DNA of 33,151 nt from an uncultured Alphaproteobacteria bacterium (GTDB lineage Bacteria > Pseudomonadota > Alphaproteobacteria > Rhodobacterales > Rhodobacteraceae), in contig CACFXF010000020.1 in the NCBI GenBank assembly GCA_902570265.1, positions 1 through 33,151 of the forward strand, written 5' to 3'. This document shows, piece by piece, positions 445 to 28,498 of the stretch. The notes beneath the pieces are model-generated. The model searched no databases. It was not told the origin of the DNA and saw only the letters and a list, made by a program, of their open reading frames with translations. Both the position numbers and the translations under genes were made by a program. The number at the start of each line of letters is the position of its first letter. Positions within the stretch are counted from its first letter, which is position 1.

Positions 445-1752
445 TCAAATATCCATAGTGTTCTCAATTTCCCATGAAGATAAATGATTATTAAATTTAT
501 CCCATTCTTCGTTTTTTAACTTAATAAAAGCTTTTGAAAATTCTGAACCTAACTTATTCTTTAATTCTGAATTCTTTGAAAATTCCCTAATTGCATCAAT
601 CAGATTTAAAGGTAATTTCTCAACTTTATTCTCTGTTATTTTATCAGTATAGATATCATTGTCGTATCTTTTTCCAGGATTTAATTTTTTTTCAATGCCA
701 ATAATTCCTGCCGCAATTATAACTGCTTGAAGTAGATATGGATTAGTAGCTCCATCAGGTAATCTCAACTCAAATCTTCCTGGACCTGGAATTCGCACCA
801 TATGAGTTCTATTATTACCGCTCCAAGTGATTGTGTTTGGGGCCCAAGTTGCGCCAGATTGAGTAATTGGAGCATTAATTCTTTTATAAGAGTTTACAGT
901 AGGATTAGTAATTGCAACCAATGATTTTGCATTTTTCATCAGTCCCCCAAGAAAATTAATTCCATTATCAGATAAGCCAAGATCAGCTTTTTTATTCTCA
1001 AATATATTCTTCTTTCCCACCAAGTCCCAAACCGAGATGTGAGCATGACACCCGTTTCCTGTAAGATTAGAAAAAGGTTTAGGCATAAAGGTTGCTCTCA
1101 ATCCGTGTTTTTCTGCTATTGATTTAACCATAAATTTAAAAAATGAATGTTTATCTGCAGTTGCAAGGGCATCGTCATATTCAAAATTCATTTCGAATTG
1201 GCCATTAGCGTCTTCATGGTCATTTTGATATGGTCCCCATCCTAATTTAAGCATTGAATCACAAATTTCTTTTATTACATCGTATTTTCTCATAACCGCT
1301 TGCTGATCATAACAAGGTTTTTCAGCATTATCATATTCATCCGAAATTGCTGATCCGTCTCTCTTGATAAGAAAAAATTCTGCTTCTATTCCAGTTTTGA
1401 CTCTAAATTTCTTCGTTTTTGCTTCACTTATTAACTTTCTCAACACATTTCTAGGAGCTTGTGAAACCTCGTTGTCTTCCATTATTAAGTCTGATGCTAA
1501 CCAAGCTACGTCAGGTTGCCACGGGAGTTGAATTACACTTTTGGGATCAGGCACAGCCAGCATATCTGGATGGGCAGGTGTCATATCTAACCAAGTTGCA
1601 AAACCAGCAAAACCCGCACCTTCTTTTTCCATTTCGGAGATAACTTGAGCAGGTACTAATTTTGCTCTTTGTGCACCAAAAATGTCAGTGAATGAAATCA
1701 TAAAATATTTTATTTTATTTTTTTTAGCATACTCTTTTAATGATTTTCCCAT
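445..1752 (-). CDS. glnT: Type III glutamine synthetase family (GlnT / gamma-glutamylmethylamide synthetase-like)
   Basis: At 435 residues, this protein reads throughout like the proteobacterial type III glutamate-ammonia ligase family. It has the YFMISFTDIFGAQRAKLVPA N-terminus, the GIEAEFFL metal-binding segment near residue 120, NDHEDANGQFEMNFE near 178, the TGNGCHAHISVWD segment near 235, and an ATP-site region ending in PGPGRFELRLPDGATNPYL. The family uses ATP to join glutamate to ammonia. The same family includes gamma-glutamylmethylamide synthetase (GmaS), which accepts methylamine in the N-methylglutamate pathway. Sequence alone does not separate the two. No mgs/mgd genes lie nearby, but the quaternary-amine genes downstream make a methylamine role conceivable. 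It is a single-gene unit, divergent from selD across about 106 bases. Confidence 0.85.
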   Translation of the reverse strand: MGKSLKEYAKKNKIKYFMISFTDIFGAQRAKLVPAQVISEMEKEGAGFAGFATWLDMTPAHPDMLAVPDPKSVIQLPWQPDVAWLASDLIMEDNEVSQAPRNVLRKLISEAKTKKFRVKTGIEAEFFLIKRDGSAISDEYDNAEKPCYDQQAVMRKYDVIKEICDSMLKLGWGPYQNDHEDANGQFEMNFEYDDALATADKHSFFKFMVKSIAEKHGLRATFMPKPFSNLTGNGCHAHISVWDLVGKKNIFENKKADLGLSDNGINFLGGLMKNAKSLVAITNPTVNSYKRINAPITQSGATWAPNTITWSGNNRTHMVRIPGPGRFELRLPDGATNPYLLQAVIIAAGIIGIEKKLNPGKRYDNDIYTDKITENKVEKLPLNLIDAIREFSKNSELKNKLGSEFSKAFIKLKNEEWDKFNNHLSSWEIENTMDI

Positions 1753-5115: not shown

Positions 5116-5883
5116 ATGAATATATTAAACCAAAAGATTGTTTTTATCTCTGGTTCTAGATCAGGGATCGGTAGATCTACAGCCATACTCATGGCAAAAA
5201 AAGGTGCTCGTCTTTTACTACATTGTAGGAAAAAGGGCGATACTCTTGATCTAATAGAGGAAATAAAACAATATGGGGGGCAAGCAAAAGAGATATCTGG
5301 TGATCTATCAAAACTTTCAAACATTACTAAATTAGCTAAATCAATTACTGAGGTTTGGGGAGGAGTAGATATTATGATTAATAATGCTGCAACTATTTCA
5401 CCAATGTCGATGTTAGGAAATTTGGACATAATTGAATTAGAAAAATCAATGAATGTAAATTTAACCGCTCAATTAGCATTAGTTTCTGAGTTATGGACAA
5501 TACTATCCAACTCTAAGGCCAGGATTATAAATATACTGTCGGGAGCTTCAAAAAATCCAAGGAAAGGTTGGTCCATTTATTGTACTAGTAAAGCTGCATT
5601 TCATATGCTTACGAAACAGATTAATTTAGAAGGAAAGGAAGAAGGTATTAAATGTTTTGGTTTTTCTCCTGGTCTTGTCAGAACAAATATGCAGATAGAA
5701 ATTAGAAAATCTAAAATCAATGAAATTTCATTTTTACCTGAGAATAATTTGATTGATCCTATTGAACCTGCAAAATGTATTTTATCAATTGCCTCTGGTG
5801 AATTTGATAATTTTGATGGAGATTTTATGGATATAAGAGATAAAATATTTAATAAAATTATATCTCATAACCTTTTTAACTAA
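5116..5883 (+). CDS. Short-chain dehydrogenase/reductase (SDR)
   Basis: This 255-residue protein is a classical SDR with an NAD(P)-binding GSRSGIGRS motif at residues 12-20, NNAA near 92, a catalytic Ser in ILSGASKNP and the YCTSK (YxxxK) pair near residue 155. An Arg/Lys-rich segment after the second strand (LLHCRKKGD) suggests NADP(H) preference. After the catalytic motif it has the usual PGLVRTNM element. The substrate cannot be read from the sequence. The next gene, an NADP-dependent reductase, follows on the same strand after 16 bases, so the two are probably co-transcribed and may act on related carbonyl compounds. Confidence 0.85.
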   Translation: MNILNQKIVFISGSRSGIGRSTAILMAKKGARLLLHCRKKGDTLDLIEEIKQYGGQAKEISGDLSKLSNITKLAKSITEVWGGVDIMINNAATISPMSMLGNLDIIELEKSMNVNLTAQLALVSELWTILSNSKARIINILSGASKNPRKGWSIYCTSKAAFHMLTKQINLEGKEEGIKCFGFSPGLVRTNMQIEIRKSKINEISFLPENNLIDPIEPAKCILSIASGEFDNFDGDFMDIRDKIFNKIISHNLFN

Positions 5884-5899
5884 ATAGTGGAAAAAAGTA

Positions 5900-6922
5900 A
5901 TGCAAATTGAAAAAGTAATATTAGCTAAAAGACCTATTGGTGAACCTACATTTGATAATTTTAATCTTGAAATTTTTAATTTCTCTGAGATTAAAACTGG
6001 AGAAATTTTTGTAAAAGTAAAATGGCTTTCATTAGATCCCTATATGCGAGGTAGAATGGATAGTGCTAAGTCTTATGCTTCACCTGTAGAAATTGGTGAA
6101 GCCATGGAAGGTGAATGTATAGGAGAAATAATAGATACCAAGAATGAAAAATTTGAAGTTGGTGAATTAGTTATAGGAAAATTTGGTTGGGTTTCACATG
6201 CCGTTTCAAATGGTTATGGATTAAGAAAGTTAGAGAGAACAAATATTCCAGAACAATATTTTTTAGGTGTTTTGGGAATGCCGGGTCATACTGCATGGAC
6301 TGGGTTGAATAAAATAGCAAATGCAAAAAAAGAGGAAACCTTGGTAATCTCTGCAGCTTCTGGTGCGGTGGGAAGTTTGGCAGGACAGCTTGCCAAAAAA
6401 AAGGGGTTGAAAGTTCTTGGTATTGCTGGAAGTGATGAGAAATGTTCGTATGTAACTAATGAATTAGGATTTGATGCTTGTATTAACCACAATAAAATTA
6501 AAGATAATATGGAATTTAGAAATTTAATTAAATCATATTGTCCTTATGGGGTTGATATTTATTTTGAAAATGTGGCTGGAAAAACACTAGAAGCGATAAT
6601 TCCGAATATGAATGATTTTGGTCGGATTGCTGTTTGTGGTATGATTTCTTGGTATTCTGGAAAAGGCATTAATGAAGCAATGGCTCTTCCAAAATTATGG
6701 CGAACAATTTTAGTTAAAAGATTAAAAGTTAATGGATTTATTATTTTTGATCACAAAGAAACATATCCCCAATTTATAGAAGAAGTAACACCTTTTATTC
6801 AAAAGCAGCAAATAATTTATAAGGAAGACATAAGGATTGGCTTGTCTAATGCTCCATCAGCGTTCATTGATTTATTAAATGGCCGTAATTTTGGGAAAAT
6901 GTTAGTAAAAGTAGGAGACTGA
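5900..6922 (+). CDS. NADP-dependent oxidoreductase, MDR superfamily (alkenal/one or curcumin reductase-like)
   Basis: This 340-residue zinc-free medium-chain reductase has WLSLDPYMRGRMDSAKSY near residue 45, GEAMEGECIGEI near 70, the LGMPGHTAWTGL segment and the nucleotide-binding SAASGAVGSLAGQLAKKKG near 150. It also has YFENVAGKTLEAIIPNMN and a GRNFGKMLVKV C-terminus. These are typical of the leukotriene B4 12-hydroxydehydrogenase/CurA/YncB group, which reduces the C=C bond of alpha,beta-unsaturated ketones and aldehydes with NADPH. It is probably cytosolic. It likely forms an operon with the SDR upstream and ends 3 bases before the end of the convergent luciferase-like gene. Confidence 0.86.
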   Translation: MQIEKVILAKRPIGEPTFDNFNLEIFNFSEIKTGEIFVKVKWLSLDPYMRGRMDSAKSYASPVEIGEAMEGECIGEIIDTKNEKFEVGELVIGKFGWVSHAVSNGYGLRKLERTNIPEQYFLGVLGMPGHTAWTGLNKIANAKKEETLVISAASGAVGSLAGQLAKKKGLKVLGIAGSDEKCSYVTNELGFDACINHNKIKDNMEFRNLIKSYCPYGVDIYFENVAGKTLEAIIPNMNDFGRIAVCGMISWYSGKGINEAMALPKLWRTILVKRLKVNGFIIFDHKETYPQFIEEVTPFIQKQQIIYKEDIRIGLSNAPSAFIDLLNGRNFGKMLVKVGD

Positions 6923-6925: not shown

Positions 6926-7963
6926 TTAAGCAAACTCTGGCATTACTTCTTCGATAAATAATTTTAAGGATTTTTTTTGTTCTTTATGTCCTAAACCCAT
7001 GCTTGCATAATAAATGAATTCATCGACACCTAAATTTTGATATAATTTAAGCTTTTCAATAATTTCTTCAGGTGTGCCAAATAAAAGGTTTTTTGTAAGC
7101 ATATTTGGGTCATACTGTTCTCTACCCTCTAATTCATTTAATGGAATTTGTTTTGTAAATCCATTTTCAACATCACCAAGATTTTTGAATAAATTTTCGA
7201 ATTGTCCTAATACAGTTCTAATTGAATTCAGAGCTTTCCGCTTGTCTGAATCATTAGTATATACTGCTGCATGCCGCATCATTGCAAATATAGGTTTAAA
7301 ACTTGATTTATGGTTTGCAATGGCATCATCTAATTGTTTTTTATAGAGTTCTGCTTCTGAAAATGGTCTAGTTAGTGGCCATGACATAACATTACATTTA
7401 TTTTTTATGGCATAATCATAAGTAATTGGTGAACGTGCTGCCACCCAAACTGGTGGATGAGGTTTTTGTACTGGTTTAGGGCAAGAAGTTGAAGAAGGAA
7501 ATTCCCAGAACTCCCCTTTATGCTCTACATCTCCAGACCATAATTGTTTTAATAATGGTAGCATTTCTTGCATATAACGCCAGCCATCTTGTTGTTTGAC
7601 ATTTGGTTTCATTCTATCAAATTCTCTCTGATAAGCGCCTGATCCAATTCCAAACTCTAAACGACCGCCACTAATCAAATCTGTAAAAGCTGCTTCTCCA
7701 GCAAGATTTATAGGGTGCCAATATGCAGCGTTTACTACTGCGGTACCAAGTCTAATTTTTTCTGTATGACTAGCCCACCAAGTTAATATTTGAAAAGGAT
7801 TTGGGGCTATAGTCATTTCTATAGCGTGGTGTTCAGCTGCCCAAACAATGTTGAACCCACCTTGATCGGCCATTTTAACCATTTCAAGGGTATGGTTCTT
7901 AACATTTTCCATATCAACGCTATTATCCATGCGTTCTAAATTTACAGCTAATTGGAATTTCAT
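6926..7963 (-). CDS. LLM-class flavin-dependent monooxygenase (luciferase-like)
   Basis: At 345 residues this is a bacterial-luciferase-like TIM barrel: MKFQLAVNLERMD at the start, WAAEHHAIEMTIAPNP near residue 41 (paired His typical of LuxA-like proteins), LGTAVVNAAYWHPINLAGE, SGGRLEFGIGSGAYQREFDRM near 105 and a HPPVWVAARSP segment. Such enzymes oxidise a small substrate with FMNH2 and O2 and depend on a separate flavin reductase. A flavin-reductase domain is encoded in the same operon (8667-10760), so the two probably form a two-component monooxygenase. The sequence is closer to the LuxA/alkanal type than to RutA. A G-rich Shine-Dalgarno site precedes the ATG. This is the last gene of the five-gene minus-strand operon. 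Confidence 0.88.
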   Translation of the reverse strand: MKFQLAVNLERMDNSVDMENVKNHTLEMVKMADQGGFNIVWAAEHHAIEMTIAPNPFQILTWWASHTEKIRLGTAVVNAAYWHPINLAGEAAFTDLISGGRLEFGIGSGAYQREFDRMKPNVKQQDGWRYMQEMLPLLKQLWSGDVEHKGEFWEFPSSTSCPKPVQKPHPPVWVAARSPITYDYAIKNKCNVMSWPLTRPFSEAELYKKQLDDAIANHKSSFKPIFAMMRHAAVYTNDSDKRKALNSIRTVLGQFENLFKNLGDVENGFTKQIPLNELEGREQYDPNMLTKNLLFGTPEEIIEKLKLYQNLGVDEFIYYASMGLGHKEQKKSLKLFIEEVMPEFA

Positions 7964-8039
7964 TAAATATTTCCCCCAAAAAATTTGAAATTCTATTTCA
8001 TGGTATAATATTAAACTAATTGTGCAATCGGTTTTTTTA

Positions 8040-8642
8040 TTATACTCCTGCTGGATTATCCTCTGTTCTTCCTAAAGAATTTAAATCAGAATAGCGATCT
8101 CCAATTCTATGATGAGGTCTTCCACTGGTTGCTGCTCCAAGTGCTGCGATTAATTCATTTCCAGCTGGAGCATCATTTATTGAAAATTGCACCGTTAAGT
8201 AATGTGATCGTCTTCCTGTATCATTTTTATCCATTAAGGGAATATAAACTGGAGTATTTGCAGGTCCTCTGACGTTTGTGAAGCCAAGATAAGATTTAGC
8301 TTTAGCTGCTTCTCTAAGATAGTTTCCGAATTTTAATGTATGTATTAAAGCCGAAGCATGTTCGATTTCAGAATCTATTCCAGCGACTGCCGCTTTGCCA
8401 TATGCTTCTATTTTGTCTCCAGATCCAATAATTGCCACTAATTTTTTAGTAAGTAATTTTCCAATTATTGGTGAAATTCTAGTTATTTCAGGTGCTAAAT
8501 CTTCAGTAAAGTTTTGACCATACCAAGGATTTTTTAAAACAGCAGCAACTCCAATCAACTTAAGATCGTTTGACGCTTTTTTTCCACCTTCAACATTAAT
8601 TGTTTCTTCATAAGTGACTATTTTTCTAATATCTTCAATCAT
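8040..8642 (-). CDS. Amino acid synthesis family protein (PF06684, former DUF1185)
   Basis: This 200-residue protein matches the PF06684 family in length and in the segments IRKIVTYEETINVEGGK, AVLKNPWYGQNFTEDL, KLVAIIGSGDKIEAYGKAAV, GIDSEIEHASALIHTLKFGN and a SGRPHHRIGDRYSD C-terminus. Published structures show a variant of the Bacillus chorismate mutase fold, the same broad fold group as RidA. The biochemical function is not established. Family members often sit beside luciferase-like monooxygenases and flavin reductases, as here. The operon context suggests a hydrolase or isomerase acting on the product of the oxygenation. That is inference. Confidence 0.85.
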   Translation of the reverse strand: MIEDIRKIVTYEETINVEGGKKASNDLKLIGVAAVLKNPWYGQNFTEDLAPEITRISPIIGKLLTKKLVAIIGSGDKIEAYGKAAVAGIDSEIEHASALIHTLKFGNYLREAAKAKSYLGFTNVRGPANTPVYIPLMDKNDTGRRSHYLTVQFSINDAPAGNELIAALGAATSGRPHHRIGDRYSDLNSLGRTEDNPAGV

Positions 8643-8666
8643 TTATTCCCCCACATAAAAATAATA

Positions 8667-10760
8667 TTAATAAACTTTTTTCACTTTACCTTTTTTTTCG
8701 TTTCCTTGATAAATACCAAATTGTCCATGATGGTACTCATCATGGTATCTCTTCATCATAGTTTTTTCAGCATTATTAATAATTTTCTCATACGGAATTT
8801 CATTGATATCAAATGTCACAGTAGTATTATTTCCATTTCCAGAAAATTTTCCATGATAAAAAATCATATGAGAATTTATTTCCTTATCTTCATAAACCGA
8901 ATATAAAAAATCAAGTTTAAATTTTAAGTTCAGACTATTTAAGTAATCTTCCAACCCTTTTAAATTTTTTTGACTATTTAAAGACTTTGGTAGGGTAAGA
9001 TTTCTGTCTTTATCAACAATAAAAAGTATTCTATTTTTATTTTCTAAAATAGCTCCAAAATGAGTATTTCTGTCATTATTAACCATATCTATCAGTGACT
9101 TTTCAAAACCTATTGAAAAATAATCACCATCAAAATAACCTAACGGTTTACCATTCCTTAATCCAAAATCTTTAATACTTCCAATAATAATTGCGTGATC
9201 CCCAGCTTCCTGAAAATTTGTCTTTTCACATGAGAAATATGATAAAGCTGAGTCAATTATTGGTAATTCTTTAAAACCTTTTTTCCATTTAGTAATTTTA
9301 AATTTCTCAGAGCTCTGTGATGAAAATAATCCTGCAGTAGATCTCTGGCTTTCGCTTAATACATTCACTGCAAAATATTTGCTATCTCTAAAAGTTGAAT
9401 AACTTTGTGCATTTTTTGATATGCAAACTAATAGTAATGGTGGGTCTAGGGATACCGAAGTGAAAGAATTGGCCGTGAAACCTCTTGGTGTACCATTTTC
9501 TTGTCTAGTTGTAACCAAAGTTACTCCAGTTGCAAAAGAACCAAAAGCTTTACGCAACTTTGAACTTTTGGATTTCTTAAATATCTCTGACTTATGTTCT
9601 AATATATTGTCTTTATTATTTTCACCTAAAGAAGGGGCAGGTTTAAAATCAGGTTGAGGGAATTCACTGAAATTTAGAGGATTACCAGCTACTCTCCATG
9701 GCTTAATTTTGTCGTTAAAAGGGATTTCAACTTTTCTTATCATAGAACGTTTTTTTACATGAGAATCTTTAAATATTTTCTCAGCAGTATTTAAAGGACC
9801 GAAGGGAACATATCCGCCAAGTAAACTTCCCAATTCTTTATTAGTTTTGGTTTTTGTCCAACTTTCTATAATTGAATTAAGCAATTTAGCATTATGTTGT
9901 CTAGATTCTATTGTTTTATATTTCTGATTCTCTGTTAATTCTTTGTTCCCAATAATATTAGTTAAAACTTTCCAGAAAGAATTATCAACGATACCTAATG
10001 CAATATGTCCATCTTTACTTTTATATATCCCGAATGGAACTAGTAAGGGGTGTACGTTTCCTTCAGGCTTAGGTATGGTTTTATCAAAGTCATATTGATA
10101 AATTATTCTTTCACAAAGACTTAAAACCGCATCATACATAGACAGATCAATAAATTGTCCCTTAGATGTTTTTTCAGCTATACGTAAGGCAGAGATAATC
10201 CCAAATGACATCATTAGCCCAGAAAAAATGTCTCCAACACCTGGACCAACTTTTGTTGGAGTATTTTTATCTGGGCCAGTAATGCCAATAATTCCACCCA
10301 TAGCTTGGGCAACAACATCATAGGAAGGCCAATAAGTGTAAGGACTTTTTCCAAATTGGGGATTTCCAAAACCACTTATTGCGGCATAAATAAGTCTGCT
10401 GTTTATTTCCTTTAGTTTATTAAAACCAAGTCCCAATTTATCCATCACACCTGGTCTGAAATTTTCAACTAAAACATCAGCTTTTTCTACAAGATGAAGA
10501 AATTTTGTTTTCCCATTTTCAGATTTTAAATCTATGACAATGCTTTTTTTATTTCTATTGAGGCTTACAAAATATCCTGACCATTTTTTTTCATAATCTT
10601 CAATTTTAAAAGGACCAGTTTTCCTACTTGTATCGCCTGTAGGACTTTCAATTTTGATGACTTCAGCTCCATGGTCTGCAAGCATCATTGTACAATATGG
10701 ACCAGAAAGCATTCTACTTAAATCTAACACTTTTAAACCTGAAAGAATACCTTTTTTCAT
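8667..10760 (-). CDS. CaiB/BaiF-type CoA-transferase fused to a flavin reductase domain and an extra C-terminal domain
   Basis: This is a single 697-residue frame. Residues 1-385 form a class III CoA-transferase: GLKVLDLSRMLSGPYCTMML, ADHGAEVIKIESPTGD, LVENFRPGVMDKLGL and the catalytic Asp in WPSYDVVAQAMGG near residue 152, ending in PAPSLGENN, where free-standing enzymes stop. From about residue 398 it continues as a flavin-reductase split barrel (LRKAFGSFATGVTLVTTR, GFTANSFTSVSLDPPLLLVC, DGDYFSIGFEK). A third region, 560-697, ends in a His-rich KRYHDEYHHGQFGIY segment I do not recognise. The reductase probably feeds FMNH2 to the downstream luciferase-like enzyme, while the transferase may load the substrate or product onto CoA. 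It starts 4 bases after the hydrolase stop. I see no frame anomaly at the junction, near position 9570. Confidence 0.85.
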   Translation of the reverse strand: MKKGILSGLKVLDLSRMLSGPYCTMMLADHGAEVIKIESPTGDTSRKTGPFKIEDYEKKWSGYFVSLNRNKKSIVIDLKSENGKTKFLHLVEKADVLVENFRPGVMDKLGLGFNKLKEINSRLIYAAISGFGNPQFGKSPYTYWPSYDVVAQAMGGIIGITGPDKNTPTKVGPGVGDIFSGLMMSFGIISALRIAEKTSKGQFIDLSMYDAVLSLCERIIYQYDFDKTIPKPEGNVHPLLVPFGIYKSKDGHIALGIVDNSFWKVLTNIIGNKELTENQKYKTIESRQHNAKLLNSIIESWTKTKTNKELGSLLGGYVPFGPLNTAEKIFKDSHVKKRSMIRKVEIPFNDKIKPWRVAGNPLNFSEFPQPDFKPAPSLGENNKDNILEHKSEIFKKSKSSKLRKAFGSFATGVTLVTTRQENGTPRGFTANSFTSVSLDPPLLLVCISKNAQSYSTFRDSKYFAVNVLSESQRSTAGLFSSQSSEKFKITKWKKGFKELPIIDSALSYFSCEKTNFQEAGDHAIIIGSIKDFGLRNGKPLGYFDGDYFSIGFEKSLIDMVNNDRNTHFGAILENKNRILFIVDKDRNLTLPKSLNSQKNLKGLEDYLNSLNLKFKLDFLYSVYEDKEINSHMIFYHGKFSGNGNNTTVTFDINEIPYEKIINNAEKTMMKRYHDEYHHGQFGIYQGNEKKGKVKKVY

Positions 10761-10764
10761 ATTA

Positions 10765-11577
10765 TTATTTTTTTATATCTAAGAATTGGTTTAAAAAATT
10801 TTCTAAAATTTTTCCAAATTGTTTTGGATCTTCAACTAGTCCCATATGCTTTAGATTTTTCATAATTACTAATTTACTATTCAGGCTTTCTTTACAAATT
10901 CTTTTACTCATATCTGGATTGTTACCAAAATCTTGATCTCCTGTAACTACTAAAGTTGGGCATGAAATTTTTTTTACAGGATTTATAATTTCATTGATAT
11001 CATAAGCTAAAATTTTATATATCTTCGAGTAAAAAGAAGGATTATTATTTAATATCCATTTTTTTATAAGCTTTATCTTTTTTGGTTTTGATAAAATATA
11101 TTCATCAGAGAACCATCTTTTTATTGCATCATTTACAGTAGATTGCGGTCCTTTGTTTTCAGCTTGTTTAACTCTTTTATCAATAGAATTTTGTTGTATT
11201 AGTGTTCTTTTATGAGGTGAATTTAAAATAATAAGGCCCTCCAAATTTTTTTCAAACAAGTGTGCAAATTTACGTACTATCATTCCACCAAGAGAAAAGC
11301 CTACTAGAATAGCTTTTTTATATCCAAGCTTTCTAATCAGAACTTTTATCTGATTTGCAAACATTTCTAGTGATGGGGTAGAAGGAGGATTTATACTTTT
11401 CCCATGTCCGTATAAGTCAAATTTAAGAATATCAAATTTTTTGTAAACATTACTTGGTAACCATTGCCACATTTGACAATTCAGACCAAAACCATGAACA
11501 AATATTACTAGTGTCCTATTTAAATTTCCATTAAATTCAAAATAAGTTCCTTTTGCTTTATATTTTTTTTCTAACAA
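10765..11577 (-). CDS. Alpha/beta hydrolase
   Basis: The protein has 270 residues with a classical alpha/beta-hydrolase plan: VIFVHGFGLNCQMW (HG oxyanion motif, near residue 26), LYGHGKS, the nucleophile elbow LVGFSLGGM (GxSxG) near 95, the acid in VVTGDQDFGNNPDM near 212 and the catalytic His in NLKHMGLVEDP near 244. It resembles the pimeloyl-ester/3-oxoadipate enol-lactonase/RutD type. It sits between RidA (13 bases upstream) and the CoA-transferase/flavin-reductase fusion (4 bases downstream), so translation is probably coupled. The likely task is hydrolysis of an ester, lactone or carbamate formed by the monooxygenase. No signal peptide is seen, so it should be cytosolic. Confidence 0.85.
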   Translation of the reverse strand: MLEKKYKAKGTYFEFNGNLNRTLVIFVHGFGLNCQMWQWLPSNVYKKFDILKFDLYGHGKSINPPSTPSLEMFANQIKVLIRKLGYKKAILVGFSLGGMIVRKFAHLFEKNLEGLIILNSPHKRTLIQQNSIDKRVKQAENKGPQSTVNDAIKRWFSDEYILSKPKKIKLIKKWILNNNPSFYSKIYKILAYDINEIINPVKKISCPTLVVTGDQDFGNNPDMSKRICKESLNSKLVIMKNLKHMGLVEDPKQFGKILENFLNQFLDIKK

Positions 11578-11590
11578 TGGTATAAACTTC

Positions 11591-11978
11591 TCATTCAGGC
11601 TTGTAAGCTATTACTTCAATTTCAACTTTTACATCTACTAGAAGTTCATTAACGAGTGCTGATCTGGCTGGAGGATCACTTTTGAAATAACGGCTATAAA
11701 CTTCGTTAAACCCAGGAAAATCATTTTTATTGCTTAACCATACCATTGATTTGACAACATCATTAAGTGTGCAATCAGCTAAACTTAGTGTTTTCTCAAT
11801 GTCTTGGATGACAGCAATTGTTTGTTCTTCAATTGTCCCATATGTCATAACTTTACCATCTTTCATAGGAACTTGTCCCGTACAAAAGATATAATCTCCA
11901 GCTTTCACTGCCCTCGAAAGTGAAAGTTTTCTACCATTTATAAAGATTGGATCTCCAAGTACTATTTTTTTTTGTCAT
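11591..11978 (-). CDS. RidA (YjgF/YER057c/UK114) family protein, start region frame-interrupted
   Basis: The in-frame part (11908 downward, from a GTG) encodes 105 residues: KAGDYIFCTGQVPMKDGKV, TLNDVVKSMVWLSN, and PPARSALVNELLVDVKVEIE with the conserved Arg and Glu of RidA deaminases. The frame stays open upstream through KKIVLGDPIFINGRKLSLSRAV, the normal RidA N-terminus, but has no start codon there. An ATG at 11978 (MTKK...) lies in another frame, separated by an A9 tract (11973-11965). Eight A's would give a complete 128-residue protein, the usual length. RidA proteins hydrolyse reactive enamine/imine intermediates or related amides. This is the first gene of the operon, divergent from the aldehyde dehydrogenase gene. 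Confidence 0.83.
11965..11973 (-). other. Frame break after the start codon of the RidA gene at an A9 tract
   Basis: On the coding strand the sequence is ATG AC followed by nine A's and TAGTACTTGG. With eight A's it reads MTKKIVLGDP and joins the RidA frame. As written, the RidA frame meets a TGA just upstream of the tract. Confidence 0.7.
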
Positions 11979-12092
11979 TTTTTTATCCGACAATATTTAA
12001 TTTATTTAACTCAAATCCATTTCTGAATTATAGTCAGTTTATTGATAAATCTAAATAAGAATCAATTTAAATTTTATATTAGAGGTTTTATA

Positions 12093-13574
12093 ATGACTGA
12101 AATAAAAAAATATAAAATGCTTATCAATGGTAATTGGACGTCAGGTTCCGAAAATCAATTTTTTGAGAGTTTAAATCCTTATACTGGAGAAATCTGGTCA
12201 AGCATACCATCTGCAAGTGTAAGTGATGTTAATTCTGCAGTTGAGGCTGCACATCATGCATTTTCTGAAGGGCCTTGGTCAAAAATGACGCCTACTATGC
12301 GAGGTAATTGTTTAAGGAAATTAGCTGAGCTTTTAAGCGAAAAGTCCGAACCACTAGGAAAAACAGAAACCATTGATACAGGTAAAATGCTTAAAGAAAC
12401 ACGTTGGCAAGCTAAATATATTTCTGAATTCTTTCAATTTTATGCAGGTTGTGCAGATAAAATAAGTGGTGAAACTTTACCAATTGATAAACCTGATTTA
12501 TTGGTTTTAACCGAAAGGGAACCTCTTGGGGTAATAGCAGCGATTGTTCCATGGAATTCACAATTGTTCCTAGTTGCAGTCAAACTTGGCCCAGCTCTTG
12601 CTGCTGGAAATACAGTAGTTTTAAAAGCTTCAGAGCATGCATCTGCAGCTATGTTAGAGTTTGGTCAATTAATTGAAATGGCTGGTTTTCCTCCAGGTGT
12701 TGTAAATATTATTACAGGGCATGGTGATCCTTGCGGAAAAGAATTAACTTCTCATCCACTCATAGCGCGTGTTTCATTCACTGGTGGTCCAAAATCAGCC
12801 CAAAATATAATTAATAATAGTGCTAACAATTTTGCTGAAGTATCATTAGAATTAGGTGGAAAATCTCCTTTCATTGTCTTTGATGATGCAAATATAGAAA
12901 GTGCGGTAAATGGATCTATAGCAGGAATATTTGGAGCATCTGGCCAGAGTTGTGTTGCAGGTTCTAGACTTTATCTTCATGAAAAAATTGCAGATGAATT
13001 TCTGCATAAGATGATGAATGTGGTTAATTCAATAAAACTTGGTGATCCATTAGAAGAAGATACTCAAATGGGCCCTCTATGTACTATAAATCAAATTGAA
13101 AATATTGAAAGAGAAATTGCTTTTGCAAGATCTGAGGGTGCTGAAATTTTATGTGGTGGGAAAAGACCGTCAAATCTTCAAGGCTTTTTCTTTAATCCAA
13201 CAATTATTTCGTGTCCAAAACAAACATTAAAAATTGTAGATACAGAGCTTTTTGGGCCGGTTCTCAGTGTTCTAACCTTTAAAGATGAGCAAGAAGTAAT
13301 TAAACTTGCAAATGACACAAAACATGGTTTAGCAGCCGGCATTTTTACTGAAAATAGTGCTCGTTCTCTTAGGGTTGCAAGATCCGTAAGAGCCGGAATA
13401 GTTTGGGTAAATACCTATAGAGTAGTATCGCCAATAGCTGAGTTTGGAGGATTTAAAGGCTCTGGTTATGGTAGGGAAAGTGGATTTCAAGCAATGTATG
13501 ATTACACGCGTCCAAAAACTATTTGGCTTAATACTTCTAATGAATCCATGAATAACCCATTTGTAATGAGATAA
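12093..13574 (+). CDS. Aldehyde dehydrogenase (betaine-aldehyde / trimethylaminobutyraldehyde dehydrogenase-like)
   Basis: This 493-residue NAD(P)-dependent aldehyde dehydrogenase has the ALDH core: IVPWNSQLFLVAVKLGPALA (cofactor cleft), SFTGGPKSAQ, the general-base Glu in VSLELGGKSPF and the catalytic Cys in GASGQSCVAGSRLY near residue 285, ending with PIAEFGGFKGSGYGRE. The ATG at 12093, with AGAGG about 8 bases upstream, is preferred over a TTG at 12042 that adds 17 unusual residues. It heads the plus-strand catabolic run. With CaiD, carnitine dehydrogenase and BKACE genes behind it, oxidation of 4-trimethylaminobutyraldehyde to gamma-butyrobetaine is a natural guess, though ALDH specificity cannot be read from sequence. 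Confidence 0.88.
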   Translation: MTEIKKYKMLINGNWTSGSENQFFESLNPYTGEIWSSIPSASVSDVNSAVEAAHHAFSEGPWSKMTPTMRGNCLRKLAELLSEKSEPLGKTETIDTGKMLKETRWQAKYISEFFQFYAGCADKISGETLPIDKPDLLVLTEREPLGVIAAIVPWNSQLFLVAVKLGPALAAGNTVVLKASEHASAAMLEFGQLIEMAGFPPGVVNIITGHGDPCGKELTSHPLIARVSFTGGPKSAQNIINNSANNFAEVSLELGGKSPFIVFDDANIESAVNGSIAGIFGASGQSCVAGSRLYLHEKIADEFLHKMMNVVNSIKLGDPLEEDTQMGPLCTINQIENIEREIAFARSEGAEILCGGKRPSNLQGFFFNPTIISCPKQTLKIVDTELFGPVLSVLTFKDEQEVIKLANDTKHGLAAGIFTENSARSLRVARSVRAGIVWVNTYRVVSPIAEFGGFKGSGYGRESGFQAMYDYTRPKTIWLNTSNESMNNPFVMR

Positions 13575-13602: not shown

Positions 13603-14406
13603 GTGTCTAGTGGTGTGGAAGTCAAAAAAGTTGGTAGAATTTTAGAAGTTTGTTTAAACAAACCAAAGGTAAATGCAATAAATATAGAAATGAGTCAGGA
13701 ATTAGGTAAAGCATTTGCAGAATTGAGAGATAACAAAGATCTTTGGGTTGGAATATTAACTGCAAAAGGTGAAAAAATTTTTTCAGCCGGGTGGGACTTG
13801 AAAGCAGTAAATTCTGGTGAAATGTCATTAGAAAACTGGTGGGAAAATGAAGATTATGGGGATGGAGGTTTTGCAGGATTAACTGAAAACTGGAATTTGA
13901 ATAAACCTGTCATTGGAGCTCTTAATGGATTAGTCATTGGTGGAGGATTTGAATTAGCATTGGGGTGTGACCTATTAATTGCTTCTGAGCATGTTGAGTT
14001 TGGATTACCTGAAATGCCACTAGGAATAGTACCTGATGCTGGAGCTTTACAAAGACTTCCAAGATGTATCCCCTACAATGTTGCGATGGAAATGTTTCTT
14101 TTAGGTAGGAGAATGTCTGCAGTTGAAGCAAAAAATTATGGATTGGTAAATAAAATTGTAAAACATGAAAATTTGCTTGATCAAGCTTACGAATGGGCAA
14201 AACAAATTGCTACTTCAGCTCCTTTGGCAATGCAAAGTGTGAAAGAAGTTCTGAGGTCAATAGAATGTGTGCCTTTAGAACAAGCATTCTCTAAAATGCG
14301 AAATGATGATTTAAAAATATATAAGAAGATGCTTAGTTCCGATGATGCTAAAGAAGGTATTGCGGCATTTGTTGAAAGAAGAGAACCAAATTTTAAAGGT
14401 GAATAA
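13603..14406 (+). CDS. caiD: Enoyl-CoA hydratase family, carnitinyl-CoA dehydratase-like
   Basis: At 267 residues, this crotonase-fold protein closely follows CaiD. It has KIFSAGWDLKA near residue 60, GGFAGLTENWNLNKPVIGAL, GLVIGGGFELALGCDLLIA near 108 (oxyanion-hole glycines), EMPLGIVPDAGALQRLP near 140 with the conserved acidic residue, GRRMSAVEA and a VERREPNFKG C-terminus. CaiD interconverts crotonobetainyl-CoA and L-carnitinyl-CoA. The GTG start at 13603 follows a strong AGGAGAG site. The gene ends overlapping the start of the carnitine dehydrogenase gene, so the two are translationally coupled. Another hydratase of the same family is possible, but the CaiD-specific segments and the neighbours favour this call. 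Confidence 0.85.
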   Translation: MSSGVEVKKVGRILEVCLNKPKVNAINIEMSQELGKAFAELRDNKDLWVGILTAKGEKIFSAGWDLKAVNSGEMSLENWWENEDYGDGGFAGLTENWNLNKPVIGALNGLVIGGGFELALGCDLLIASEHVEFGLPEMPLGIVPDAGALQRLPRCIPYNVAMEMFLLGRRMSAVEAKNYGLVNKIVKHENLLDQAYEWAKQIATSAPLAMQSVKEVLRSIECVPLEQAFSKMRNDDLKIYKKMLSSDDAKEGIAAFVERREPNFKGE

Positions 14407-15344
14407 TGGATCTTATTGATAAAAATGCTGTAAAGACTGTGGGGAGTATTGGAGCTGGACCAATTGGGGCTGGATGGGTTGCCTATTTTCTATCACAAGG
14501 TTTATCAGTAAATGCTTATCTTCATAATGAATCAGAAGAAAATAATTTTTATGCTATGCTAAGAACAGCATGGGTTTCACTTAAGAAACTTTACAATATA
14601 AAAGAACTAGAAGAAACCAATCTTGAGATTTTTTTTGATTTATCTGAATGCATTAAAAAAGTTGATTTCATTCAAGAAAGTGCACCTGAGATCCTTTCTT
14701 TAAAACAAAGTTTATATAAAGAATTAGGTGAAATTGTTCCAAAAAATGTAATTATTTGTTCTTCAACATCTGGCATGAAAATGACAGATATTCAGACTTT
14801 ATGTAAAACACCTGAGAGAACAGTAGTAGCTCATCCATTTAATCCACCATATTTATTACCATTGGTGGAGATTGTAGGAGGAAGAAAAACTAAGGAGGAA
14901 GCTGTTAATTGGGTTTATGATTTTTTTATTAAAATAGGTAAATCTCCATTAGTTTTAAAAAAAGAAATTCCTGGTTTTGTTGCTACAAGACTTCAGGAAG
15001 CTTTATGGCGTGAAGCTTTACATATGGTTGAAAATAATGAAGCAACACCTGAGCAAATTGATATTGCCTTAATGAACGGTCCAGCCCCAAGGATGGCGAT
15101 ACAGGGTCAATGCTTAGCTTTTCATGTAGCCTGTGGAGAAGGAGGTATGGCCACGAATTTAGATCAATTTGGACCAGCATTGGAATTACCCTGGACTAGA
15201 CTAAAGGCTCCTGAACTGACAAAAAAACTAAGAGATAAAATGGTAGATGGTTGTGAAAAAATTGTAAAAGACCAAAAATTTCAAGATCTTGCTTCAGAAA
15301 GAGATAAAAAAATTGTTGAAATTATTAAAATTCAAAGAAAATAA
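14406..15344 (+). CDS. L-carnitine dehydrogenase (3-hydroxyacyl-CoA dehydrogenase family)
   Basis: This 312-residue protein oxidises a beta-hydroxy acid with NAD. It has a Rossmann GSIGAGPIGAGWVAYFLSQG at residues 13-32, EIVPKNVIICSSTSGMKM, and the 3-hydroxyacyl-CoA dehydrogenase signature HPFNPPYLLPLVEIVGG near 140. It also has IPGFVATRLQEALWREALH, and GGMATNLDQFGPALELPWTR near 245, a segment typical of L-carnitine dehydrogenases. The product would be 3-dehydrocarnitine. Unlike some pseudomonad enzymes it has no fused thioesterase domain. Its ATG overlaps the hydratase stop, and a BKACE gene, the known next step, follows after 33 bases. The family call is firm and carnitine as substrate is likely. 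Confidence 0.86.
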   Translation: MDLIDKNAVKTVGSIGAGPIGAGWVAYFLSQGLSVNAYLHNESEENNFYAMLRTAWVSLKKLYNIKELEETNLEIFFDLSECIKKVDFIQESAPEILSLKQSLYKELGEIVPKNVIICSSTSGMKMTDIQTLCKTPERTVVAHPFNPPYLLPLVEIVGGRKTKEEAVNWVYDFFIKIGKSPLVLKKEIPGFVATRLQEALWREALHMVENNEATPEQIDIALMNGPAPRMAIQGQCLAFHVACGEGGMATNLDQFGPALELPWTRLKAPELTKKLRDKMVDGCEKIVKDQKFQDLASERDKKIVEIIKIQRK

Positions 15345-15377: not shown

Positions 15378-16262
15378 ATGAACTTTGAAGTTGTTCTTAC
15401 CTGTGCTGTTACAGGAGCAGGAGATACGGTAGGTAAAAGTGATAAGGTGCCCGTTTCAGCTAAAGAAATAGCTGATGATGCAATAGAATCTGCAAAAGCA
15501 GGTGCTACTTCTGTACATATACATGTGAGAGATCCTGAAAGTGGTAAAGGTTCAAGAGACCCAAAATTATTTAAAGAGGTGGTAGAAAGGATAAGAAATT
15601 CCTCACAAGATGTAGTCATTAATTTAACTGCAGGTATGGGAGGAGATTGGGTGGTTAATGATGGTGATTTAAATAAACCTGGATTAGGTACAGATATGAT
15701 TAGTGCGGAAGAAAGGTTAGCTCATGTAAAGGAATGTTTGCCAGAAATTTGTTCATTAGATTGTGGAACTATGAATTTTGGTAATGGTAATGAGATATAT
15801 ATTTCAACACCACCTTTTTTAAGAGAGATGGCAGCTCTGACAAAAAAATGGGAAGTGAAACCTGAATTAGAAGTTTTTGATCTTGGTCATATAAGGTTTG
15901 CAAAGGAAATGGTAAAAGAGGGTTTAATAGATAATCCGCCATTATTTCAAATTTGTCTTGGTATCCCATGGGGGGCAGAACAAACTGTAGATACCATGAA
16001 AGTTATGAAAGATCATTTGCCATTAAATTGTTATTGGGCAAGTTTTGGAATTTCTCGTATGCAAATGCCAATGGTAGCAGCTTCTGTTGCCATGGGTGGT
16101 AATGTTAGGGTAGGTCTAGAAGATAATTTATATTTAAAAAAAGGTGTGTTAGCTACAAATGCAGATTTAGTATCAAGAGCAAAAGAAATCATTGAACTAA
16201 TGGGAGCACGTATACTAAGCCCAAATGAGGCAAGAACCAAATATAATCTTAAAAAAAAATAA
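15378..16262 (+). CDS. Beta-keto acid cleavage enzyme (BKACE), dehydrocarnitine-cleaving type
   Basis: BKACE enzymes split a beta-keto acid with acetyl-CoA into acetoacetate and a new CoA ester. For 3-dehydrocarnitine this gives betainyl-CoA. The 294-residue protein has [17 protein letters not shown] at the start, [17 protein letters not shown] near residue 47 (zinc-binding His pair and catalytic-site region), [36 protein letters not shown] near 190 and [12 protein letters not shown] near 235 with the conserved Glu. The [17 protein letters not shown] combination is that of the group found beside carnitine dehydrogenases. A GGAGGGG ribosome-binding site lies about 8 bases before the ATG. The carnitine dehydrogenase gene directly upstream supports the substrate. 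Confidence 0.88.
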
Positions 16263-16290
16263 ACCTAAGCTATTTATAAAGGAAGTAAAA

Positions 16291-17451
16291 TTGGATCAAA
16301 TTACAAGTCAAGAAAGTTCTCTTATTTTAAATACTGCTAGAAAGTTTTTGGAAGAAGAAATTTATCCATACGAAGAAACAGTAGACAAAATTGGCGAAGT
16401 ACCAATCGAATTAGGTAAACAAATAGAGGAAAAAGCAAAAGAAGCCGGACTTTTTGCAGCAAATCTTCCTGTAGAAGTAGGTGGGGGTGGTCTTGATTAT
16501 AGATCTATGAGTATTCTTGAAAGAGAGTATGGTAAAACAACACATGCTTTGCATTCGTGGATAGCAAGACCGACAGAAATTCTCTTGGCATGTAATGATG
16601 AGCAAAAAGAGGAATATTTGTATCCATGCGTTAAAGGAGATAAAAGAGAACTATTTGCCTTAACAGAACCTGAAGCTGGTTCTGATGTCATGGGAATGAA
16701 ATCTAATGCTGTGAAAAAAGGTAATGATTGGATTTTAAATGGATCAAAGCATTTTATTTCTGGGCCTAGTTTGCCTGATTTTGCAATAGTTTTTGCTGCA
16801 ACAGGTGAAGATAAAACATCTAGAGGGACAAGAAAAAGAATAACAGCTTTTTTAGTAAACCGTGGTCTAAAGGGATTTGATATTAGAGAGGGAACTAAAT
16901 GTGTTAGTTACAGGGGATACAAGACATTTGCTTTGAATTTTAATGATGTAAAACTTTCATCCAAAATGATTTTAGGTGAGGAAGGAAAAGGCTTAGAATT
17001 ATCTGGAAAATGGCTAGGTATGGGAAGAATATGGGTTGGTGCCTCTTGCTGTGGAAAAGCAGAAAGAATGATGCAACTTTCAAGTGAATGGGCAGCTCAA
17101 AGAAAACAATTTGGGCAACCAATAGGAAAATTTCAGGCGGTGAGTTTCAAGCTTGCAGATATGGCTCTTGGATTAAGAGCAGCAGATTTGTTGGTAAAAG
17201 ATGCAGTAGAAAAAGCGGAGAGAAGTATCATGAAGGATGAAGATGCAGCAATGGTGAAACTTTTCTGTTCTGAAATGGTTAATAAAGTTGCTGATGACAC
17301 TGTGCAAATTTATGGAGGGATGGGGCTAATGGAAGAAATGCCCATTCAGCGCTTGTGGAGAGATAGTCGATTAGAGAGGATATGGGACGGAACATCTGAA
17401 ATTCAAAGGCATATAATTTCTAGATCAATTCTCAGACCCCTTGGGGCATGA
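16291..17451 (+). CDS. Acyl-CoA dehydrogenase (candidate gamma-butyrobetainyl-CoA dehydrogenase)
   Basis: This 386-residue flavoenzyme has the ACAD plan: EKAKEAGLFAANLPVEVGGG near residue 50, FALTEPEAGSDVMGMKSNAV near 125 (FAD/substrate signature), WAAQRKQFGQPIGKFQAV near 270, QIYGGMGLMEEMPIQRLWRD near 340 and RIWDGTSEIQRHIISR near 365. In the last, the position of the usual catalytic Glu (YEGT) is Asp. I prefer the TTG at 16291, with AAGGAAG 5 bases upstream. An ATG at 16225 would overlap the BKACE gene by 38 bases and add 22 non-family residues. In this setting it probably oxidises gamma-butyrobetainyl-CoA to crotonobetainyl-CoA, feeding the CaiD-like hydratase. Its stop overlaps the next start (ATGA). 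Confidence 0.85.
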   Translation: MDQITSQESSLILNTARKFLEEEIYPYEETVDKIGEVPIELGKQIEEKAKEAGLFAANLPVEVGGGGLDYRSMSILEREYGKTTHALHSWIARPTEILLACNDEQKEEYLYPCVKGDKRELFALTEPEAGSDVMGMKSNAVKKGNDWILNGSKHFISGPSLPDFAIVFAATGEDKTSRGTRKRITAFLVNRGLKGFDIREGTKCVSYRGYKTFALNFNDVKLSSKMILGEEGKGLELSGKWLGMGRIWVGASCCGKAERMMQLSSEWAAQRKQFGQPIGKFQAVSFKLADMALGLRAADLLVKDAVEKAERSIMKDEDAAMVKLFCSEMVNKVADDTVQIYGGMGLMEEMPIQRLWRDSRLERIWDGTSEIQRHIISRSILRPLGA

Positions 17452-19635: not shown

Positions 19636-20787
19636 ATGAGACCATTTGAAGGAATTAGAATTCTTGACTTGACCCACGTTTTTGCTGGTCCTTTTTGTAC
19701 ATTTCAATTGGCAGTTATGGGAGCTGAAGTCATTAAAATAGAGTCCCCTGATGCTCCTGACATGATGAGAGATGAAGGTAATTTTGATGATCTTAATGAA
19801 TTAGGTTTGAGCAATTTTTATATATGCCAAAATAGTGAAAAGAAATCATTATCCTTGGATTTAAAAGTAGAAAAGGATAAAAATTTTTTTTTAAAACTAT
19901 TAGAAACAGCCGATGTTTTAGTACAAAACTACTCAGGTAATTCTATAGCTGATTTGGGTCTTTCCTATAAAAAGTTAAAAAAAATTAATCCTCGATTGAT
20001 ATATTGTTCAATGACAGGTTTTGGCAGAACTGGACCAAAATCAGAACATCCAGCCTATGACTCAGTAATACAAGCGTATTCAGGATTAATGGAATTAAAT
20101 GGATTGAAGTCTACAGGACCTCTACGTGTTGGACCTGCCGTTGTAGATTATGGAACAGGAATACATGCAGCTTTTGCTATATCTTCGGCGCTTTATAGAA
20201 GGCAAATAACTGGTAAAGGCCTTGAAATTGATGTGTCAATGCTTGATGCAGCACTAATGCTCATGACCTCCACAGTTTCAGAAACAATTGCAACAGGGTT
20301 ATCTAAGCCTAACTATGGTAATGATCATCCCGATTATGCTGGTTATGGTGCCTTCAAAGCAAATGACAGAGATTTTGTAATTGGTGCTTTCACAAAAAAA
20401 CAAATGCAAAATTTGTTCAGGGCACTCGATTTAGAAGATACAGCAAATGAAATATCATATATGAGTAAAAAAGAGTTAAAAACAAATAAGAAAAAGTTTA
20501 AGAAAATGATATCTCAGGTTGTCATTAATAACACGGCTGATTATTGGGAGGAAGTTTTAAATAGATATCATGTTCCGGCTTCAAAAATTCAAACTCTCAC
20601 AGAAGCACTTAATAGCGAACAAATTAAGTCAAGGTCAGTACTTCAAAATTCTTTGTTGAGTAATAATTTTCATTCAAAAAAACTTCCTACAGCAGCTTTT
20701 GGTTATTCAAGTGGTTCTCCAAAAATTACAAAACCTGCTCCAAAAATTGGCAAAAATAATAAAGAAATAAGAAAATTAATTAGCTGA
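19636..20787 (+). CDS. CaiB/BaiF-family CoA-transferase
   Basis: The 383-residue class III CoA-transferase has IRILDLTHVFAGPFCTFQL, AVMGAEVIKIESPDAPDMM, VLVQNYSGNSIADLGL, and the catalytic Asp in HPAYDSVIQAYSGLMELNG near residue 145. GPLRVGPAVVDYGTG and a PAPKIGKNNKEI C-terminus complete the fold. Members move CoA between carboxylic acids. CaiB does so between carnitine, gamma-butyrobetaine and crotonobetaine. The 94-base gap upstream is larger than elsewhere in the run, so it may have its own promoter. The ribosome-binding site is weak. Given the neighbours, a carnitine/gamma-butyrobetaine CoA-transferase is plausible, possibly taking CoA from betainyl-CoA or acetoacetyl-CoA. Confidence 0.85.
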   Translation: MRPFEGIRILDLTHVFAGPFCTFQLAVMGAEVIKIESPDAPDMMRDEGNFDDLNELGLSNFYICQNSEKKSLSLDLKVEKDKNFFLKLLETADVLVQNYSGNSIADLGLSYKKLKKINPRLIYCSMTGFGRTGPKSEHPAYDSVIQAYSGLMELNGLKSTGPLRVGPAVVDYGTGIHAAFAISSALYRRQITGKGLEIDVSMLDAALMLMTSTVSETIATGLSKPNYGNDHPDYAGYGAFKANDRDFVIGAFTKKQMQNLFRALDLEDTANEISYMSKKELKTNKKKFKKMISQVVINNTADYWEEVLNRYHVPASKIQTLTEALNSEQIKSRSVLQNSLLSNNFHSKKLPTAAFGYSSGSPKITKPAPKIGKNNKEIRKLIS

Positions 20788-22614: not shown

Positions 22615-22629
22615 ATAAAAGTTGAATTT

Positions 22630-22662
22630 GAGGGAGTAAAACTTTGCTCCCTCTTTTTTTTT
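22630..22662 (+). terminator. Rho-independent terminator after the binding-protein gene
   Basis: GAGGGAG (22630-22636) pairs with CTCCCTC (22647-22653) around a 10-base loop and is followed by nine T's. It lies 16 bases after the binding-protein stop and 49 bases before the first permease start. This suggests partial termination that lets the binding protein be made in excess over the membrane components. Confidence 0.85.
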
Positions 22663-22710
22663 ATTTCATACATTACTATACTTTTACATAAAACTAATGA
22701 ATATTAAATA

Positions 22711-28398: not shown

Positions 28399-28453
28399 GT
28401 ATTGATATTTACCATATAAAAAAAATAGTTGTAATAAAATTTAAAAAGGAAAT

Positions 28454-28498
28454 AAAAAAAATGTCCAAATAAGAAAGGGAGGGACTATTTGGACATTT
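28454..28498 (-). terminator. Strong hairpin with T tract, likely terminator of the M20/M24/EutA-like operon
   Basis: Thirteen-base perfect arms (28459-28471 and 28486-28498; core AATGTCCAAATA / TATTTGGACATT) enclose a 14-base loop, which is a run of A and G on the plus strand. On the minus strand the hairpin runs directly into a row of T's (28460-28454). It lies about 190 bases after the stop of the EutA-like gene. The rest of the 28399-28686 gap is AT-rich with no convincing gene. Confidence 0.65.

Follow-up and report, generated by a model that had tools for sequence, protein, structure and literature searches.

The stretch of DNA analysed here (the window) comprises 33151 nucleotides of contig CACFXF010000020.1 from an uncultured member of the Rhodobacteraceae, and its minus strand carries, at positions 6926–11974, an operon transcribed in the order RidA, alpha/beta hydrolase, class III CoA-transferase/flavin reductase fusion, PF06684 protein and luciferase-like monooxygenase (LLM). 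Together with a divergent aldehyde dehydrogenase (ALDH) gene, this cluster appears to be a variant form of the two-component ring-opening cassette known as Tgn-type, with RidA and the CoA-transferase as additions in part of one oxygenase clade. From gene content and protein similarity, homology with the Tgn-type cassette is very probable. The name refers to the trigonelline degradation cassette TgnA–F of Acinetobacter baylyi ADP1, reportedly described by Perchat et al. in 2018.

The ring-opening cassette and its Tgn-type relatives

The content of a Tgn-type cassette, i.e. LLM, flavin reductase, ALDH, alpha/beta hydrolase and PF06684 protein, is present side by side in the window, including the ALDH, which a preliminary description of this DNA had overlooked. 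In a search of plasmid records, Tgn-type clusters (GntR, PF06684, hydrolase, flavin reductase, LLM and ALDH) were found in Acinetobacter junii, Sinorhizobium meliloti (pSymA, as in strain ABS7), Ensifer, Leisingera and Pantoea. The window proteins are identical with their A. junii counterparts at 59% (PF06684), 53% (ALDH), 38% (LLM), 34% (flavin reductase) and 22% (hydrolase) of positions. The A. junii locus additionally holds a transporter and a succinate-semialdehyde-dehydrogenase-like gene, and we take this gene set to be the tgn set of ADP1; the label 'Tgn clade' used below rests on gene content. Like the A. junii and S. meliloti clusters, the window has a two-component LLM and flavin reductase contiguous with ALDH, hydrolase and PF06684 genes and accompanied by a transporter, whereas it differs in its separate oxygenase clade, its distant hydrolase, the added RidA and CoA-transferase, the adjoining carnitine-like CoA genes and the lack of any GntR or succinate-semialdehyde dehydrogenase match within its length. 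Near-identical gene content and a closely similar divergent layout were found on plasmids pW43B of Parasedimentitalea marina (NZ_CP033221), whose LLM is 67% identical with that of the window, and pSR3 of Aminobacter sp. SR38 (NZ_CP062115). The P. marina cluster shares the CoA-transferase/flavin reductase fusion, whereas the Aminobacter flavin reductase is free, and both differ from the window in having a GlxA-family regulator, another ABC transporter and an LLM placed after the ALDH on the other strand. A marine metabolomics study of 2021 (PMC8269262) states that TgnA/TgnB opens the trigonelline ring, and another paper (PMC4207669) reports growth on trigonelline for wild-type S. meliloti, but not for a strain lacking pSymA.

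The gaps from the end of the LLM to RidA are 76, 24, 4 and 13 bases, consistent with a single operon. The LLM (6926–7963, 345 amino acids; PF00296, 181.3 bits) is the proposed ring-opening oxygenase, and the PF06684 protein (8040–8642, 200 amino acids; 211.6 bits against a gathering score of 27) is TgnF-like by similarity and context. All of the families named for 6926–11978 in the preliminary description are present on the minus strand, although the CoA-transferase and flavin reductase form one frame of 697 amino acids (8667–10760; PF02515, 383.9 bits; PF01613, 132.6 bits), with the CoA-transferase at approximately residues 6–382 and the flavin reductase plus a C-terminal domain at approximately 399–697. 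Matches in the PDB were 9br6, a succinate-hydroxymethylglutarate CoA-transferase, over residues 6–383 and 3rh7 over residues 400–694. The CoA-transferase half scored 393.2 of the 700 bits set for the succinyl-CoA:mesaconate transferase model, its best matches being dicarboxylate transferases, and the fusion was present in eight of 12 genomes of the window's genus. The alpha/beta hydrolase (10765–11577, 270 amino acids; PF00561) is PcaD-like, with 132.3 of 255.85 bits for the 3-oxoadipate enol-lactonase model. RidA is an open frame at 11591–11974 (PF01042, 86.3 bits), for which TIGR00004, below its cut-off, was the sole match in NCBIfam, searched at an E-value of 1e-20 only. ATG, GTG and TTG are all missing at its expected start, and the ATG at 11978 that had been taken as the start lies in another frame, because the window has a tract of nine A residues where the nearest relative has eight. 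This single additional A would be due to a fault in the assembly or to a genuine frameshift. In the RidA frames of nine relatives, an ATG precedes the conserved part. Converging on the oxygenase are SDR and curcumin-reductase-like MDR genes (5116–6922, plus strand); among the loci read, MDR matches were confined to the window's genus and genome G315.

The unit had been taken to end at 11978, but in other genomes the operon is also accompanied by the divergent ALDH (12042–13574; PF00171), which corresponds to the Tgn-type ALDH, and frequently by the genes that follow. On this plus strand follow an enoyl-CoA hydratase resembling crotonobetainyl-CoA hydratase (CaiD-like; 13603–14406; NF002936, 287.9 bits, cut-off 500), a 3-hydroxyacyl dehydrogenase resembling carnitine dehydrogenase (CDH-like; 14406–15344; NF005471, 276.2 bits, cut-off 414) and a BKACE protein (15378–16262; PF05853, 320.9 bits, cut-off 24.8). 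They are succeeded by an acyl-CoA dehydrogenase (16225–17451; PF00441, PF02770 and PF02771), an ADP-forming acyl-CoA ligase-like protein (17448–19541; PF13549 and PF13607, under the ligase equivalog cut-offs), a second class III CoA-transferase (19636–20787; NF008511, 254.1 bits, cut-off 522) and an ABC transporter (20965–26266) with a family-5 binding protein (PF00496) and, by sequence, two frames resembling permeases and one resembling an ATPase; this transporter is probably an uptake system. The CaiD-, CDH- and BKACE-like enzymes of this linked operon resemble the carnitine/crotonobetaine/BKACE route, from which the window differs in that its hydratase and dehydrogenase remain under the carnitine equivalog cut-offs and are flanked by a ring-opening cassette.

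Oxygenase clades and gene neighbourhoods

Structure prediction for the LLM (20-row alignment; mean pLDDT, the predicted local distance difference test score, of 91) gave a luciferase-type fold. The best Foldseek matches were the bacterial luciferases 8cbb and 1luc, followed by 3fgc, with 20–23% identity among the ten best, and RutA was unnamed among the 50 matches listed. With a luciferase-type barrel and a flavin reductase domain encoded two genes away, the pair has the make-up of a bacterial-luciferase-like two-component system. Glu44-His45-His46 and Arg177 are conserved in at least 97% of the 93 type-sorted rows (of 144) in our alignment, the double histidine presumably corresponding to the luciferase catalytic pair. 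Between 37 RidA-linked and 33 Tgn-type oxygenases, 40 columns, including Trp195, Tyr207, Tyr319 and Ser321, are fixed (>90%) yet different.

In a quick tree of 144 oxygenases, the window oxygenase falls outside the Tgn clade (33 rows, support 100), in a clade of its own kind with 107 rows (support 100), and a three-row clade of betaine-transporter-linked clusters has support of 99. RidA presence changes 11 times on this tree, eight of the changes being forced by starred branches, and RidA was rejected as the marker of one clean clade. Part of these changes may be false absences, because the tree includes loci shortened by contig ends. An Oceanospirillaceae locus (L065) groups beside a Planktomarina metagenome-assembled genome (MAG) of the same sample series; it may be misbinned and was therefore excluded as evidence of spread.

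Querying 295 genomes of the family with the window oxygenase gave 31 places with at least 60% identity in 29 genomes, two at 46–48% and the rest at 43% or less, and a Tgn-type query gave 48 places at 65% or more. From these we analysed 29 of the 31 window-clade loci, both intermediates, 29 of the 48 Tgn-type loci and 20 hand-placed controls. A scan of named genomes yielded at least 591 stretches and at least 565 relatives, and the best 80 loci were kept, with oxygenases 64–85% identical; by their titles these belong to Rhodobacteraceae, SAR116, other Alpha- and Gammaproteobacteria, Acidimicrobiales and single Chloroflexi and Nitrospinota MAGs. A gene no more than 8 kb from the oxygenase was called as a neighbour when BLAST matched it to a seed at an E-value of 1e-8 over 40% of that seed, and the counts below use loci flanked on either side by 6 kb or more of sequence, i.e. 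20 window-clade and 27 Tgn-clade loci of the family sample and 46 of the 80 named loci, some loci of the two sets being from the same or near-identical genomes.

Within the family sample, the 20 window-clade loci have ALDH and hydrolase in all cases, PF06684 in 18, flavin reductase in 13, RidA in ten (one of them, L149, by a 31% match), CaiD and BKACE in eight each, the CoA-transferase/flavin reductase fusion in six and a hydrolase/flavin reductase fusion in two. The 27 Tgn-clade loci have ALDH and hydrolase throughout, PF06684 and flavin reductase in 26 each and GntR in 23, with no RidA or CaiD. For the 46 named loci the counts are hydrolase 35, ALDH 34, PF06684 26, flavin reductase 25, RidA 23, CaiD 23, BKACE 21 and CoA-transferase/flavin reductase fusion 15. 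Flavin reductase, ALDH, hydrolase and PF06684 all lie near the LLM in 26/27 Tgn-clade, 12/20 family-sample window-clade and 23/46 named loci. The 20 control regions, hand-picked 18.5 kb stretches of the same family, contained no LLM, PF06684, flavin reductase, hydrolase, RidA, CaiD, CDH or BKACE match, and one match each for ALDH, GntR and CoA-transferase. These data show that the cassette genes co-occur more than by chance. The grouping of families noticed in the preliminary description likewise recurs: RidA, hydrolase, flavin reductase and PF06684 all lie no farther than 8 kb from the oxygenase in 8/20 family-sample and 17/46 named loci, and the five families including the CoA-transferase in 5/20 and 13/46.

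The oxygenase is widespread, and the full cassette was seen mainly in Alphaproteobacteria. The CoA-linked variant was seen mostly in Rhodobacteraceae, with further cases in a single cell of SAR116 (L078) and in MAGs of Hyphomicrobiales (e.g. L083). In four loci (L024, L069, L128 and L131) the flavin reductase is fused to the hydrolase, which ties these two steps together. In a Tabrizicola locus (L116, 11061–17651), a GlxA-like regulator, an MttB-family methyltransferase, a pipecolate-oxidase-like protein and an ALDH stand beside the ring-opening cassette.

Candidate pathway, substrate and competing explanations

The best explanation of these data, to which we give about an even chance, is a flavin-dependent opening of an N-methylated aromatic N-heterocycle, oxidation to a dicarboxylate and a subsequent CoA-linked, carnitine-like shortening. 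An N-heteroaromatic betaine of the trigonelline or homarine kind is the substrate with roughly equal chances for and against, and that the CoA branch acts on the ring-opening product we would put just short of even. An oxidative heterocycle-opening route leading on to CoA had already been suggested for this operon and would still be the best reading. The flavin reductase half of the fusion would make reduced FMN (flavin mononucleotide), with which the LLM and O2 would split the betaine ring to an N-formyl-N-methyl enamine that ends in an aldehyde; the PF06684 protein might assist at this stage. The ALDH would oxidize the aldehyde to a dicarboxylate, the alpha/beta hydrolase would take off the formyl group or open a lactone, and RidA would hydrolyse the reactive enamine or imine. 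CoA could be loaded by the CoA ligase or by the transferase half of the fusion acting as a succinyl-CoA:dicarboxylate CoA-transferase, the dicarboxylate-transferase similarity of this half being as expected for a dicarboxylate substrate. The CaiD-like, CDH-like and BKACE enzymes would then process the ring-opening product as their relatives do crotonobetaine and carnitine, with an N-methylglycyl-type thioester and acetoacetate as end products. A cleaved N-methylpyridinium would leave a 4-aminobutenoate chain, i.e. the crotonobetaine skeleton, which would explain the adjoining carnitine-like enzymes.

A more specific proposal, which we regard as speculative and on balance doubtful, is a hitherto undescribed route for an abundant N-methylpyridinium betaine of the ocean, homarine being the obvious candidate, in which the CoA-transferase/flavin reductase fusion joins ring opening to carnitine-like shortening and the PF06684 protein serves the ring-opening/aldehyde step common to all subtypes instead of helping succinate-semialdehyde dehydrogenase. 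With its 2-carboxylate, homarine would yield a 2-enamino acid, and RidA acts on compounds of this type. Homarine catabolic genes were reportedly described by Ferrer-Gonzalez et al. (Nat Microbiol, 2026), and a citing paper says that N-methylglutamate dehydrogenase takes part; these genes possibly concern the same substrate class as the window cluster. None of the 29 window-clade stretches from the family sample matched a sarcosine-oxidase-like alpha subunit, which we take to be a relative of that dehydrogenase. The window's own genome has two sarcosine-oxidase-like operons, both on other contigs, which are presumably common genes in this group and were discarded as a sign of homarine use. In one stretch of this genome (L228, 9575–12587), a sarcosine-oxidase-alpha-like gene is split into two frames of 197 and 808 amino acids, perhaps by another assembly frameshift.

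The preliminary description had compared the operon with the Rut pathway, and the Rut composition given there does have four broad superfamilies in common with the window. However, the RutA model (TIGR03612, cut-off 498.3 bits) found nothing at an E-value of 0.001 in the assembly, which is 81% complete, bearing out the remark that the monooxygenase is not RutA-like, and the best RutB match (TIGR03614, cut-off 377.95 bits) was 70.9 bits for a gene elsewhere in the genome, as expected from the reported absence of RutB. In addition, the RutF flavin reductase model (TIGR03615) gave 83.7 bits against a cut-off of 254.75 and the RutD hydrolase model (TIGR03611) 57.7 bits against 238.5. With RutA unmatched and RutB, RutD and RutF below their cut-offs, Rut membership was rejected, and the operon is not Rut-like in a close sense; the Tgn cassette gives the better gene-for-gene match, which leaves a Rut-type opening of a pyrimidine or amide highly improbable.

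CaiD-, CDH- and BKACE-like neighbours would also suit an acyclic or alicyclic quaternary amine (of the carnitine, gamma-butyrobetaine, stachydrine or pipecolate betaine kind) attacked directly by the LLM, with the hydratase, CDH-like and BKACE enzymes forming an ordinary carnitine-type route. GlxA-type regulators at 7/20 family-sample and 22/46 named loci, the MttB-family and pipecolate-oxidase-like genes of the Tabrizicola cluster and a glycine-betaine-monooxygenase-like gene adjoining the LLM in another locus (L047) point the same way, and part of a study of SAR11 (PMC12421898) has CDH, BKACE and ALDH grouped with gamma-butyrobetaine dioxygenase. We nevertheless consider such a substrate, and a route of this ordinary type, rather unlikely: the core of LLM, flavin reductase, ALDH, PF06684 and hydrolase is common to Tgn-type clusters, whose known substrate is aromatic, 12 of the 20 family-sample window-clade loci have no CaiD, and the CDH and CaiD of the window score well under the carnitine equivalog cut-offs. 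Alternatively, the cluster might degrade Tgn's own substrate, trigonelline, by different later steps. A window-clade LLM is present in 29 of the 295 family genomes, a Tgn-type LLM in 48 and both in only one, against approximately 4.7 expected, as if the two replaced each other, although the Fisher p of 0.06 is weak and ignores relatedness. Given that one genome (G078) has both LLM types, that another (G071) bears two window-clade clusters of differing make-up and that the RidA-linked and Tgn-type oxygenases differ in the 40 fixed columns, a second trigonelline pathway seems quite unlikely.

Turning back to the preferred reading, ring opening joined to a CoA branch, the CoA-linked genes are associated across 66 window-clade loci: RidA and CaiD occur together in 26, RidA only in seven, CaiD only in five and neither in 28 (Fisher p 3e-7), and the CoA-transferase/flavin reductase fusion and CaiD together in 20, the fusion only in one, CaiD only in 11 and neither in 34 (p 6e-8), i.e. 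CaiD in 20/21 loci with the fusion versus 11/45 without it, with the reservation that these tests ignore relatedness and that the two locus sets share genomes. As subtypes A and B were sorted by nearby RidA or CaiD, we quote totals over the whole clade. This reservation and several further observations weigh against the reading. CaiD is missing from 23 of the 46 named loci as well as from the 12 family-sample loci just mentioned, and RidA from ten of 20 and 23 of 46, which means that the core does not depend on the CoA branch. One locus (L125) has CaiD and BKACE but neither a CoA-transferase nor a flavin reductase beside the LLM, a pattern repeated in its near relatives L051, L052 and L109, and in the window itself the hydratase and dehydrogenase fall short of the carnitine models. 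In the named set, PF06684 and flavin reductase are often not found near the oxygenase, the absent flavin reductases perhaps being missed under the BLAST limits or encoded elsewhere, and several gammaproteobacterial and acidimicrobial loci show few or no partners, some of them because their contigs break off. The low hydrolase identity with A. junii extends to four further Tgn-type hydrolases (21–23%). Finally, the 2021 study (PMC8269262) deems TgnA/TgnB action on homarine unlikely for steric reasons and reports poorer growth of Ruegeria pomeroyi on homarine than on trigonelline.

The PF06684 protein, flanking genes and wider significance

Identity of the PF06684 protein with that of the window is 59–65% in five Tgn-type clusters, where the LLM has 38–40%, and 47–50% in two clusters with ProX-type transporters, where the LLM has 48–49%; PF06684 as the best-conserved protein thus holds against Tgn-type clusters, but fails against the ProX-type, and was rejected as a general statement, a result that slightly lowers the chance of the undescribed ocean-betaine route proposed above. 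In part of a study of 7-hydroxycoumarin degradation (PMC7913881), a PF06684 protein is described as homologous to TgnF of the trigonelline pathway, and TgnF as stimulating TgnE-dependent succinate semialdehyde oxidation, and a passage on the first PF06684 structures (PMC2954203) ties the family tentatively to amino-acid metabolism. PF06684 genes lie near the oxygenase in 18/20, 26/27 and 26/46 window-clade, Tgn-clade and named loci, whereas succinate-semialdehyde dehydrogenase matches do so in 1/20, 5/27 and 2/46, although the latter enzyme may be encoded elsewhere. These neighbourhoods would suit a role at the shared early step no less than the helper function that has been reported. A general tie of PF06684 to LLMs was rejected, as 16 of 20 hand-picked stretches (of 85 class-wide places) have members of 31–41% identity and no LLM; among the same 20, an LLM is present in three of the four stretches whose members are 63–72% identical with the seeds. 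Distant members (36–39% to the seeds) form tandem pairs in three stretches (L204, L205 and L208), and ABC ATPase-like genes share the stretch with the pairs in L204 and L208.

Farther out in the window, a minus-strand block (27277–31780) with a CoA-transferase, an EutA-like protein (180.4 of 318 bits) and genes of the M24 creatinase-like and M20 peptidase families resembles a modified ectoine-utilization block. At 445–1752 (minus strand) lies a type III glutamine synthetase (653 bits, cut-off 469.6), presumably related to gamma-glutamylmethylamide synthetase, which could be relevant to the pathway if methylamine is a product.

Among the papers listed in a literature search, outside which the reports of Perchat and of Ferrer-Gonzalez and their colleagues lie, none has the CoA-linked variant in its title or abstract, and part of the system may already be known. 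According to the 2021 study (PMC8269262), homarine made up as much as 3% of the particulate carbon in one data set from the Pacific, and no pathway for its degradation was known to the authors. The CoA-linked variant supplies candidate genes for the sinks of betaines such as homarine. Furthermore, since PF06684 accompanies the oxygenase and ALDH far more often than a succinate-semialdehyde dehydrogenase does, its reported helper role is worth re-examining, and the cluster offers a test of the function of this protein.

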